64,000 nucleotides of DNA from Flavobacterium rhamnosiphilum. GTDB taxonomy: Bacteria > Bacteroidota > Bacteroidia > Flavobacteriales > Flavobacteriaceae. This document shows, one piece after another, positions 12,564-59,383 of this stretch (position 1 is its first letter; every line of letters begins with the position of its first letter). Location: NCBI RefSeq assembly GCF_004349195.1, contig NZ_SMLG01000010.1, positions 62,001 through 126,000 of the forward strand. Reading direction: 5' to 3'. The notes under the pieces were generated by a model. The model saw only the letters and a list, made by a program, of their open reading frames with translations. It had not been told where the DNA came from and ran no database searches. A program made the position numbers and the translations under genes.

Positions 12564-12699
12564 GAGCTATTTCCAGCTATACGTTGCAACCTTTCTAGTC
12601 CTGAAACAAGTTCAGGACTAGAAAGGATTTACACTGCAAACGAAGTTCACTGAACTCCTATGAAAATAGAAATCAAGTGAAGTAATCTGGGCTAAACGT
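12562..12699 (+). repeat. Dispersed palindromic repeat, copy A
   Basis: The element starts GGAGCTATTTCCAGCTATACG and ends ATCTGGGCTAA. In its centre CCTTTCTAGTCCTGAA (12590-12605) pairs perfectly with TTCAGGACTAGAAAGG (12611-12626). Related copies lie at 47038-47192 and, inverted, at 59195-59296. It abuts the lolD stop codon, so it could act as that gene's 3' end structure. Confidence 0.7.
12642..12686 (+). repeat. Short repeat GAAGTTCACTGAACTCC..., copy 1
   Basis: This segment aligns with 23436-23480 along its whole length with a few mismatches and one gap. TTCACT near its start and AGTGAA near its end are inverted. It lies inside dispersed repeat copy A, suggesting nested insertion. Confidence 0.6.
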
Positions 12700-48428: not shown

Positions 48429-49214
48429 ATGTCACAAGACACAAAAGAATTAAAACTGGCCGTTCTCATTGATGCTGACAACGTTCCTTATAGTAATGTA
48501 AAAGGAATGATGGAAGAAATTGCCAAATTCGGAACACCAACCACCAAACGTATTTATGCTGATTGGACTAAACCTAATGCTAACGGCTGGAAATCAGTTT
48601 TACTGGAACACGCTATTACTCCTATTCAACAATACAGTTACACAATAGGTAAAAACTCCTCAGATTCTGCTATGATAATCGATGCCATGGATTTATTATA
48701 TTCAGACAAAGTGGATGGATTTTGTATCGTATCAAGTGACAGTGATTTTACACGTTTGGCCATCAGACTGAGAGAATCAGGAATGAAAGTCATTGGAATT
48801 GGAGAGAAAAAAACGCCCAACTCATTTATAGTTGCCTGCGATCGTTTTATCTATATCGAAGTATTAGACGGAGCCATAAAGAAAAAACAACCGAAACGTT
48901 CCTCAGACACTAAAAAACCAATTGGAAAACCCGTTGAAAAACCTATTGAAAAATCACTCAGTAAAATAGATTTACATACCATAGAACTTATTGAAACGAC
49001 AATAGAAGATATTTGTGATGATGATGGCTGGGCATTTCTTGGTGATGTAGGAAACCTAATTGTAAAGAGAAAACCTGAATTCGACCCAAGAAACTATGGT
49101 TTTGCTAAATTAACCCCAATGCTAAAATCCCTAACCGATATTCTTGAAATTGACGAAAGAGATTCAGATAAAAAAGGCATCAAACACGTTTATGTTCGAT
49201 TAAGATTTAGCTAA
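48429..49214 (+). CDS. NYN-domain (PIN-like) protein with C-terminal LOTUS/OST-HTH-like domain
   Basis: A 261-residue protein. The N-terminal NYN domain (about 1-150) carries the acidic residues of PIN-like nucleases: LIDADNVPY, SSDSAMIIDAMDLL and IVSSDSDFTRLAIRLRE. A Lys/Pro-rich linker (about 155-180) leads to a C-terminal winged-helix-like domain (about 185-260) with the LOTUS pattern DDDGWAFLGDVGNLIVKRKPEFDPRNYGF. NYN proteins are ribonucleases or RNA binders. Its 3' end faces the tandem ncRNA cluster, whose first terminator lies 82 bp away. A functional link is possible but unproven. Confidence 0.88.
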   Translation: MSQDTKELKLAVLIDADNVPYSNVKGMMEEIAKFGTPTTKRIYADWTKPNANGWKSVLLEHAITPIQQYSYTIGKNSSDSAMIIDAMDLLYSDKVDGFCIVSSDSDFTRLAIRLRESGMKVIGIGEKKTPNSFIVACDRFIYIEVLDGAIKKKQPKRSSDTKKPIGKPVEKPIEKSLSKIDLHTIELIETTIEDICDDDGWAFLGDVGNLIVKRKPEFDPRNYGFAKLTPMLKSLTDILEIDERDSDKKGIKHVYVRLRFS

Positions 49215-49295: not shown

Positions 49296-49437
49296 AAAAA
49301 AGGAGGACCCTTAGAGTCCTCCAGTTGTCGGTTCTGATTTACCATTATCAACTCATACAATTATATTAGTATAGCTGACTATTGAATTATCATATCTTAT
49401 TGTAAGACTGATATACTCAAGTAATTAATCAAAACCA
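49296..49437 (-). ncRNA. Tandem small RNA, copy 1 (most downstream)
   Basis: The transcript should start about 49437 and end at the T-run at 49296, about 140 nt. The 5' GGUUUUGAUU (49427-49436) pairs with AAUCAGAACC (49330-49339), ten pairs with one G-U. After the 5' strand comes the conserved ACUUGAG. Inside, UAUCAGUCUU/AAGAUAUGAUA forms an imperfect hairpin. The end is GGAGGAC/GUCCUCC (49302-49308 with 49316-49322 on +) and six U. I recognise no Rfam class. Confidence 0.75.
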
Positions 49438-49441
49438 CACT

Positions 49442-49471
49442 CAAAGATACAATTTACTCTCACCAAAACAA
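49442..49471 (-). promoter_or_regulatory. Promoter of small RNA copy 1
   Basis: TTG (49469-49471), 19 nt, TATCTTTG (49442-49449) on the minus strand; full consensus match. Confidence 0.75.
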
Positions 49472-49497
49472 TTAAAAATCAACCATTTAACGAATCA

Positions 49498-49503
49498 TTA
49501 ACG
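49498..49503 (-). promoter_or_regulatory. Conserved upstream motif, copy 1
   Basis: CGTTAA (TTAACG on +) in an ATGAATCAGTGCGTTAAT context, 48 nt upstream of the -7 box. Confidence 0.5.
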
Positions 49504-49631
49504 CACTGATTCATAACGTAGCAATTACATTCAAATAGTAATTTTGCACTTATAAAATTCATCCCTCTAATTCTAATTTTAAAAATTCTTTAAATTCCTT
49601 TTAAAATTAAAATTCTTTAAAATTGAACCAT

Positions 49632-49771
49632 AAAAAAAGGAGGCCTTTTTAAAGGGCCTCCTATGTGATTCTGAATTACCTATACTAACTCTTACCGTTA
49701 CTGATATAGTCTATTGTGATTTATCAATCTCATTATAAGATTGATATTCTCAAGTATTCAATCAGAATCAC
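49632..49771 (-). ncRNA. Tandem small RNA, copy 2
   Basis: About 140 nt. The closing helix is a perfect 12-bp match: AUGUGAUUCUGA (49762-49773) with UCAGAAUCACAU (49663-49674); its outer pairs reach the assumed start. ACUUGAG follows. AUCAAUCU/AGAUUGAU makes a perfect inner hairpin and CUAUA/UAUAG a second. The terminator is GGAGGCC/GGCCUCC (49639-49645, 49655-49661) with seven U. Compared with copy 1, a G-C pair is A-U and a U-G pair is C-G in the closing helix. Confidence 0.78.
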
Positions 49772-49775
49772 ATAT

Positions 49776-49806
49776 CAAAGATATTATTTTTTACCAAAAA
49801 ACACAA
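49776..49806 (-). promoter_or_regulatory. Promoter of small RNA copy 2
   Basis: TTG (49804-49806), 20 nt, TATCTTTG (49776-49783) on the minus strand. Confidence 0.75.
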
Positions 49807-49832
49807 CTAAGAATCAGTACTTTAACCAATAA

Positions 49833-49838
49833 TTAACG
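49833..49838 (-). promoter_or_regulatory. Conserved upstream motif, copy 2
   Basis: CGTTAA (TTAACG on +) in an ATAAATCCACACGTTAAT context, 49 nt upstream of the -7 box. Confidence 0.5.
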
Positions 49839-49910
49839 TGTGGATTTATAGCAGTAAAATTGCTTTTAAAAAAAGCAAAAAGGAAATTATTACTCTGGCA
49901 TATAGCCACA

Positions 49911-50048
49911 AAAAAGGAGGCCTTTTAAAGGGCCTCCGAATGTAGATTTTGATTTACCATTTATCAAACATACCGTTCAGTATGAAATGACAATTTGAAT
50001 ACTCTTCTCTTTGCAGATGGTTTTTACTCAAGTGATTAATCAAAACCA
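49911..50048 (-). ncRNA. Tandem small RNA, copy 3 (most upstream)
   Basis: About 138 nt. GGUUUUGAUU (50038-50047) pairs with AAUCAAAAUC (49945-49954), ten pairs with one G-U. ACUUGAG follows the 5' strand. CAUAC/GUAUG forms an inner hairpin. The terminator is GGAGGCC/GGCCUCC (49916-49922, 49931-49937) and a U-run. The sequence UGGUAAAUC before the 3' strand is shared with copy 1 and nearly with copy 2. Confidence 0.75.
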
Positions 50049-50052
50049 CACT

Positions 50053-50060
50053 CAAAGATA
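50053..50060 (-). promoter_or_regulatory. -7 box of small RNA copy 3
   Basis: TATCTTTG on the minus strand, same position relative to the RNA as in copies 1 and 2. The -33 TTG is lost or weak here. Confidence 0.6.
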
Positions 50061-50107
50061 CAACTTATGTTAGTTGAATTTAAAAAAAACAGCACTTTAA
50101 CTCTAAA

Positions 50108-50113
50108 TTAACG
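50108..50113 (-). promoter_or_regulatory. Conserved upstream motif, copy 3
   Basis: CGTTAA (TTAACG on +) in an AAAAATCAACACGTTAAT context, 47 nt upstream of the -7 box. Confidence 0.5.
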
Positions 50114-50238: not shown

Positions 50239-50246
50239 TATCTTTG
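50239..50246 (+). promoter_or_regulatory. Putative -7 box of rdgB (TATCTTTG)
   Basis: Fits TAnnTTTG, 24 nt before the rdgB ATG at 50271. It overlaps an in-frame TTG at 50244, ruling that out as start. Confidence 0.5.
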
Positions 50247-50270: not shown

Positions 50271-50849
50271 ATGCAACTTGTTTTCGCTTCCAATAACAAA
50301 AATAAAATACTGGAGATACAAAGTATACTTCCAGACACGATTGAAATTCTTAGTTTAGAAAGTATCGGTTGTCATGAAGACATTCCCGAAACCGCTGAAA
50401 CAATTGAAGGCAATGCTGTTCTAAAAGCCAATTATGTTACACAAAAATATGGTTACAATTGCTTTGCCGATGATACTGGACTGGAAGTGGATTCCCTGAA
50501 TGGCGAACCTGGCGTTTACTCTGCAAGATATGCAGGAGAGCAACGCAATTCTGATGACAATATGAATAAATTATTGGAGTGCTTATCCGGCAAAAGCAAT
50601 AGAAAAGCACAATTCAAAACAGTGATTGCATTGAATTTAAACGGGAAACAGCATCTTTTTACAGGAATTGCCCGAGGCGAAATTACTTTAGAAAAAACAG
50701 GGAATCAAGGATTTGGCTACGATCCTATTTTCAAACCTGAAGAATACCAAGAAACTTTTGCCCAATTATCATTGGACATAAAAAACAAAATCAGCCACAG
50801 AGGAAAAGCTACACAACAACTAATTGATTTTTTGAAAGTAAATAAATAA
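50271..50849 (+). CDS. rdgB: RdgB/HAM1-family non-canonical purine NTP pyrophosphatase
   Basis: A 192-residue enzyme that hydrolyses dITP/XTP to monophosphates, keeping deaminated purines out of DNA. It has [15 protein letters not shown] (substrate loop) and [25 protein letters not shown] (metal Asp residues). The late motifs [10 protein letters not shown] and ISHRGKA are also present. Start at the ATG at 50271. Single gene with a short leader. Confidence 0.96.
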
Positions 50850-59072: not shown

Positions 59073-59383
59073 GTTTAAAAAAGTTCTGAATTGTTGATAC
59101 TCAAAGATACAATGTTTTTTAATGTTGAATTTCATCAAATAGTATCGAAATTTTTGCTTTTTGGAAAAGGTCTTCAAAAAACTAAACGTGTCAATTAGCC
59201 CCGATGGTAATGGAAATCCTTTCTAGTCCTGAACTTGTTTCAGGATCCTGAAAACAAGTTCAGGACTAGAAAGATTGTAATGTACAGCGGGACGAGTATT
59301 AATTATGAAATGAATACTGTTGTGCTACTAAAAAAAATGTGCTACTTTGTAACAAAATCTACTTTTGAATTACTAACGTATAT
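59073..59383. other. Intergenic region with repeat copy C
   Basis: Divergent region between the NADH dehydrogenase and the ECF sigma gene. It holds repeat copy C and, at 59320-59349, TTG-N20-TACTTTG, a near-match to the promoter consensus for the sigma gene. Confidence 0.55.
59195..59296 (-). repeat. Dispersed palindromic repeat, copy C (inverted)
   Basis: TTAGCCCCGATGG...GGAAATCCTTT on the left and AGCGGGACGAG on the right match copy A read backwards. The central stem CTTTCTAGTCCTGAACTTGTTT (59219-59240) pairs with 59252-59273 around CAGGATCCTGA. Its CTAGTCCTGAA arm is identical to that of copy A. Confidence 0.7.

Follow-up and report, generated by a model that had tools for sequence, protein, structure and literature searches.

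A small RNA family of Flavobacterium encoded in tandem arrays and its predicted link to an RprX/RprY-like regulatory system

The three-unit array

Three similar units lie on the minus strand of the Flavobacterium rhamnosiphilum genome, between rdgB and a gene encoding a protein with NYN and OST-HTH domains. They were found in a stretch of 64,000 nt (GCF_004349195.1, contig NZ_SMLG01000010.1, positions 62,001-126,000, forward strand), which we call the window, and all three are present at 49296-50113, as a first-pass annotation had claimed. The proposed make-up was recovered in each of them: a promoter box TATCTTTG, an RNA close to 140 nt long (142-146 nt by covariance-model span), and a GGAGG...CCTCC intrinsic terminator with a T run. 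Among the letters said to be shared, ACTTGAG occurs in all three copies, TGGTAAATC in two, and AGGTAATTC in the middle copy. The features are listed below in window coordinates, with bit scores from our covariance model R1, whose seed contains c1, c2 and c3.

50271..50849, plus strand: rdgB (non-canonical purine NTP diphosphatase; NF011398, 330 bits, cut-off 272), given for context only
50097..50112, minus strand: c1 putative regulator box GTTAATTTAGAGTTAA, an 11-bp direct repeat
50053..50060, minus strand: c1 promoter -7 box TATCTTTG
49910..50052, minus strand: sRNA copy c1 (121.2 bits, z -6.1)
49910..49937, minus strand: c1 intrinsic terminator, GGAGGCC...GGCCTCC and T run
49822..49837, minus strand: c2 putative regulator box GTTAATTATTGGTTAA
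49776..49783, minus strand: c2 promoter -7 box TATCTTTG
49633..49774, minus strand: sRNA copy c2 (105.3 bits, z -6.7)
49633..49661, minus strand: c2 intrinsic terminator
49487..49502, minus strand: c3 putative regulator box GTTAATGATTCGTTAA
49442..49449, minus strand: c3 promoter -7 box TATCTTTG
49296..49441, minus strand: sRNA copy c3 (143.2 bits, z -5.7)
49296..49322, minus strand: c3 intrinsic terminator

The true 5' end of c1 is probably a few nucleotides inside the covariance-model span. When aligned, the copies show differences in the form of single-base gaps. Two features had escaped the first-pass annotation: a similar block of 42 nt (repeat D1) further upstream of the units, containing GTTAA-N6-GTTAAA, and a fourth copy elsewhere in the same genome (G000:C33:271363-271516), with 92% identity over the matched 153-154 nt.

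We rejected the possibility that the RNAs act as cis-antisense transcripts on rdgB. As judged by eye, rdgB has its own TATCTTTG box at 50239-50246 on the plus strand, outside the sRNA units, and the rdgB and sRNA transcripts should therefore not overlap.

Several other elements of the neighborhood were recorded. The NYN and OST-HTH/LOTUS domain protein (48429-49214, plus strand) sits beside the array, and RNA-related domains adjoin the RNA genes in many loci. An A-T-rich 16-nt inverted repeat (94%) lies between c3 and c2, at 49569-49614. The window also contains two Flavo-1 RNAs (Rfam RF01705), at 59193-59298 on the plus strand (71.4 bits) and at 12566-12651 on the minus strand (47.1 bits), and in three relatives a Flavo-1 RNA is found near the array between the NYN gene and the next gene (L032:5959-6038, L033:11072-11215 and L034:11323-11398).

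Fold and distribution of the RNA family

The minimum free energies of c1, c2 and c3 are -47.7, -46.9 and -48.2 kcal/mol (z -6.1, -6.7 and -5.7), and none of 200 shuffles of any copy was as stable as the native RNA. Both sets of covarying pairs that had been pointed out earlier (U-G, C-G and U-A; G-C and A-U) are present in our alignments when the copies are counted from low to high coordinate. Double-sided changes occur at 13 of 29 pairs in a plain MAFFT alignment of 28 copies. The structure on 144 copies has 49 pairs, with 88.3% of cells paired and 42 pairs changed on both sides; since this alignment (A3) was fitted to R1, the pair counts lean towards the 29 pairs of that model. Its covariation score was 0.298, versus 0.187 for shuffled and 0.049-0.074 for slid alignments. 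Fold averages were taken over 139 of the 144 matches, with five short or weak ones omitted, and redundancy cuts at 90% and 85% left 98 and 74 sequences.

Compensatory change supports every part of the architecture: the terminator, both arms (P2 and P3), and P1, the closing helix, which contains a one-base mismatch. Letter conservation is highest in P1 towards the junction, and the arm tips and loops are variable. The original reading of the units as paralogous sRNA genes with a preserved closing helix is supported by the existence of homologues that show compensatory changes and by the lack of a matching Rfam family. Over the three units, Rfam 15 (6S and the Flavo families included) gave no family at the gathering threshold, and the 15 matches obtained at E values up to 10 were all far below threshold. 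No family matched the sRNA copies of seven homologous loci, and blastn against phage records gave no match.

With blastn, 23 of 60 relatives gave matches, and many of the weaker matches were short. A profile of the four F. rhamnosiphilum copies, run with nhmmer, retrieved 28 copies in 14 genomes, that of F. rhamnosiphilum included, at the retention limit of E <= 1e-6; six weaker matches sit on terminators on the opposite strand. The covariance-model search that the first-pass annotation had suggested did detect the family in other flavobacterial genomes: R1 matched 85 of 299 Flavobacterium genomes (E <= 0.01), with up to 7 matches per genome. Over 75 sources R1 gave 144 matches, the last few of them weak. 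A second model, R2, had convincing matches only in the window's own genome among 397 genomes drawn from the bacterial family. Four marginal R2 matches (in 4 of the 397 genomes, E 6e-5 to 4e-4) were rejected as members because inspection showed that mostly the terminator was matched, and weak matches in other named genomes, F. hydatis among them, were likewise not counted. The searches of the 299 and 397 genomes were both run with Infernal's stricter filters, so weak family members can be missed. The RNA family has so far been found only in Flavobacterium, where its distribution is patchy (85 of 299 genomes); one genome, G029, has no match although its copy of the sensor kinase described below is 95% identical. 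One locus with a strong R1 match (L199) is titled as a Klebsiella metagenome-assembled genome, a label contradicted by an rdgB that is 77% identical to that of the window.

Judged by titles and abstracts, mostly of papers outside subscription journals, the literature on Flavobacterium sRNAs, on Rfp18 and on RprY with sRNA contained no account of the family. This is a new RNA family, in that no Rfam family covers it, of a known kind of regulation.

The 74 loci with matches, to which a few genomes contribute two, hold one copy in 41 cases and two to seven in 33. The rdgB gene is within 3 kb of the array in 51 of these loci and divergent from the RNAs in 50. Some of the loci without rdgB still have the NYN gene in position and run up against the end of their contig, so rdgB may be missing there for lack of sequence. 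Viewed from the rdgB side, strong R1 matches were found at 25 of 80 named rdgB loci, including those of F. yafengii, F. gawalongense, F. sinopsychrotolerans, F. fryxellicola, F. xueshanense and F. caseinilyticum. In three genomes there is a second sRNA locus (L031, L092 and L108), in each case close to one and the same uncharacterised protein of 169 aa; the locus L108 has two copies about 3.3 kb apart.

In loci with at least three copies, the nearest relative of 47 of 71 copies is in another locus, which indicates that diverged subtypes have been kept and that the copies are not all interchangeable. Each of c1, c2 and c3 matches a different copy of locus L091 (99, 93 and 95%), and the arrays L032, L090 and L110 contain runs of near-identical copies. 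These cross-locus matches and near-identical runs together indicate that subtypes persist and that single subtypes have been amplified. The first-pass interpretation is partly supported: the paralogous array is upheld, and a role of the RNAs as sponges or graded regulators stays conjectural.

The promoter box and the RprX/RprY-like pair

An exact GTTAA-N6-GTTAA box, an 11-bp direct repeat, was found in 98 of 143 upstream regions of the sRNA copies (one of the 144 copies had less than 110 nt upstream). Its position is narrow: 68 of the exact boxes are at -61, and 95 are between -63 and -60. Mononucleotide shuffles contained the box in 30 of 28,600 cases, and gaps other than N6, from 0 to 13, were found in 0 to 4 upstream regions. 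The remaining 45 upstream regions have a best match of 6 to 9 of the 10 letters. Outside the units, the same loci contain 5 boxes in 1,559,196 strand-bases; among 618 ORFs of at least 150 amino acids, 2 have the box in their upstream region. With a slightly looser box-plus-promoter pattern, 23 of 25 rdgB loci with a strong R1 match were positive versus none of 41 others, in a test of 66 named loci in which R1 matches weaker than E 1e-3 (L180, L178, L200, L171 and L176) were scored as no copy.

The box-plus-promoter pattern occurs at 11 sites in the F. rhamnosiphilum genome (versus 1 for the reversed pattern): four sRNAs, one sensor kinase and six others. The gene order at the kinase is coaE (assigned by eye), the sensor kinase, and an OmpR-family regulator. 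The best of 96 NCBIfam models for the regulator is RprY (NF051850), at 282.4 bits, with the next at 165; because this is below the curated RprY cut-off of 370 bits, we call the protein RprY-like only. The kinase was present in 50 of 60 relatives searched, and the promoter of the kinase operon has the repeat in all 30 loci read, the best 30 of the 50, all of them Flavobacterium. R1 found no sRNA in 13 of those 30 genomes, though the kinase promoter has the box, which suggests that the RNAs were added to a regulon that already existed.

When the pattern was made stricter, 14 genomes yielded 75 box-plus-promoter sites versus 4 for the reversed pattern; 14 of the 75 are kinase promoters and 17 are sRNA promoters. 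At the 34 site loci that we read, the site was followed by a kinase like the one beside coaE (10 loci, one of them with a different kinase), by DUF4870 (8 loci), by a TetR-type gene (4) or by a gene for a DUF5117/Met-zincin protein (2). Three more sites are sRNA promoters, and the other seven occur once each; searches annotated two of these seven, htrA (TIGR02037, 406 bits, just below the cut-off of 416) and an ankyrin-repeat protein. In F. rhamnosiphilum, PadR and PspC come next after the DUF4870 gene, and an outer-membrane efflux gene follows the TetR-type gene. The DUF4870-PadR-PspC operon (L050 1501-3063, G000:C22) has the GTTAA repeat shortly before TACTATG. HtrA, PspC and efflux pumps are textbook components of envelope-stress responses.

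The htrA promoters have GTTAA-N5-GTTAA in all 14 genomes, with the N6 form also present in only 2. Upstream of htrA (L319-L332), a well-conserved promoter block with several TTAA half-sites was seen in 14 of 14 Flavobacterium genomes, and it is likely a multi-site regulator array. As judged by eye, some sites are at another distance from the likely promoter or beside an apparent PadR or TetR operator, so activation is not assured.

The putative regulator box shared by the sRNA promoters points to an RprY-like two-component regulator, a link absent from the first-pass annotation. The OmpR-family regulator beside the RprX-like kinase would bind the GTTAA-N6-GTTAA repeat and, through the same repeat, would control its own operon. 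RprX/RprY of Porphyromonas gingivalis and Bacteroides is the best family match of the regulator. P. gingivalis RprY is reported to have bound its own promoter in EMSA and to be linked to heat-shock chaperones (PMC3646045), and rprX/rprY was reported to be essential in B. fragilis (PMC4072883). The titles and abstract openings of the literature on RprY with sRNA revealed no sRNA arm of RprX/RprY. Judged by the shared DNA motif, control of the sRNAs by the RprY-like regulator is likely. Because the switch sequence is common to a stress-sensing gene pair and to protective envelope genes, it suggests that the sRNAs are made under cell-surface stress. The RNAs would then respond to envelope stress by activation, along with other genes, among them htrA, PspC/PadR and TetR/efflux.

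Alternative explanations and possible modes of action

The tandem arrangement of the units might suggest plain repeats or remnants of mobile DNA that give no product, but the compensatory changes and the conservation of promoters, boxes, terminators and position make this scarcely credible. Identity or kinship of the family with Rfp18, an sRNA of F. psychrophilum that regulates proteases, is also very improbable. Like the present RNAs, Rfp18 is a structured sRNA of the genus, and it is described as conserved there (PMC9723704). Against this identity, R2 finds nothing convincing in F. psychrophilum DSM 3660 (best E 0.94) and there is no copy at the F. psychrophilum rdgB locus; we rejected it on this genome search, since no homologue was found in the genome tested. 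A different regulator that shares the half-site, such as a PhoB relative of the OmpR family, might be the one that acts on the box, in which case the RNAs would answer another signal such as phosphate. Spaced 11-bp direct repeats are general for OmpR/PhoB-type regulators, GTTAA resembles the PhoP half-site of B. subtilis, and the RprY model cut-off was not reached. A phosphate box was our first idea from the 11-bp repeat, and it was put second because the box led to the kinase operon. We consider another regulator improbable, because the kinase operon's own promoter has the box in 30 of 30 loci and the genes that recur downstream of it serve the envelope or efflux (with two of the seven single-case genes annotated).

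The best reading, and on balance a probable one, is that each of the three units is a small RNA gene with a promoter of its own, that the three are paralogues acting in trans, and that they are joined to an RprY-like switch and envelope stress. Several observations weigh against it: the regulator's score below the RprY cut-off, the 45 upstream regions with an inexact box, the N5 spacing at htrA, the patchy distribution with the gap at G029, and the 13 genomes whose kinase promoter has the box but in which R1 found no sRNA.

How such RNAs would act is the least certain part of the proposal. Outside the terminator, the family alignment contains no stretch that is both conserved and unpaired and no conserved accessible seed; a shared loop seed was rejected, as a single isolated column there is conserved and mostly unpaired. 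The conserved letters lie in P1, which is evidence against pairing through one shared seed. No match to Hfq was found in the F. rhamnosiphilum genome, which encodes one RRM protein, and that protein or the fold itself would therefore have to serve in place of Hfq. P1 and the junction, being conserved, may be a scaffold common to all copies and perhaps the site of a protein, and the arms, which differ between paralogues, might pair with mRNAs of envelope proteins; an array would then provide dosage as well as more than one target specificity. A scaffold that stays fixed while the arms vary and subtypes are kept would suit mRNA pairing specific to each paralogue, and the conserved P1 and junction would suit a protein site equally well; we regard arm pairing with mRNAs as a tentative possibility. 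The RNAs could instead titrate an RNA-binding protein, such as the single RRM protein, through P1 and the junction in the manner of CsrB and CsrA, without pairing to mRNAs. The greater conservation of P1 near the junction than of the loops, the near-identical runs in L032, L090 and L110, and the one RRM protein of a genome with no Hfq match would all suit titration. However, no motif repeated in loops as in CsrB is apparent by eye, and simple dosage would not need the distinct subtypes that have been kept (nearest copies in another locus for 47 of 71), and titration appears rather unlikely to us.

OmrA and OmrB of Escherichia coli are OmpR-controlled tandem sRNAs that need Hfq and share a conserved 5' seed. 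Like them, the present RNAs are tandem paralogues, each with its own promoter, and would have an OmpR-family regulator at an upstream site and an envelope setting; the 11-bp direct repeat upstream of the sRNA copies, a predicted OmpR-family site, is also in the RprXY-like promoter. In contrast to OmrA/OmrB, these RNAs have their 5' end enclosed in a long helix and reach up to 7 matches per genome, and the F. rhamnosiphilum genome has no Hfq match. Hfq-dependent pairing of the OmrA/OmrB type finds no counterpart here, where neither an Hfq match nor a conserved unpaired seed was detected. OmrA/B and FopS pair with mRNAs by other means than a fixed scaffold with varying arms. The FopS (GibS) sRNAs of Bacteroides thetaiotaomicron are reported to be a multi-copy paralogous family of the same phylum, which has RbpB as a protein partner and possibly a stress regulator (PMC11697453). 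FopS has a single-stranded 5' seed stretch followed by a terminator, in contrast to the P1-P2-P3 fold with its paired 5' end; three single folds and the covarying structure place the 5' end of the present RNAs in P1, and no single-stranded seed of the FopS kind was found there. The available description of FopS does not present its 14 members as one tandem array, whereas the present family forms tandem arrays that are often beside rdgB. No homologue of the present family was found in the F. psychrophilum genome tested, the species of Rfp18.

To our knowledge, envelope-stress control in Flavobacteria has been little studied, and within the phylum sRNAs have been described chiefly in Bacteroides. 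One broad generalization, which we think somewhat unlikely, is that bacteria without a recognisable Hfq handle envelope stress by way of an RprXY-like system whose sRNA arm consists of expandable tandem three-way-junction arrays, in which a fixed scaffold and copy-varying arms would provide modular regulators by gene amplification. The analysis yields covariance models for an RNA family, a defined DNA site for a predicted regulator, and a predicted regulon of htrA, pspC/padR, efflux and metalloprotease genes and the regulator itself. All of these steps are accessible to testing in common laboratory strains, and the loci of 1 to 7 copies are a natural experiment on sRNA copy number.
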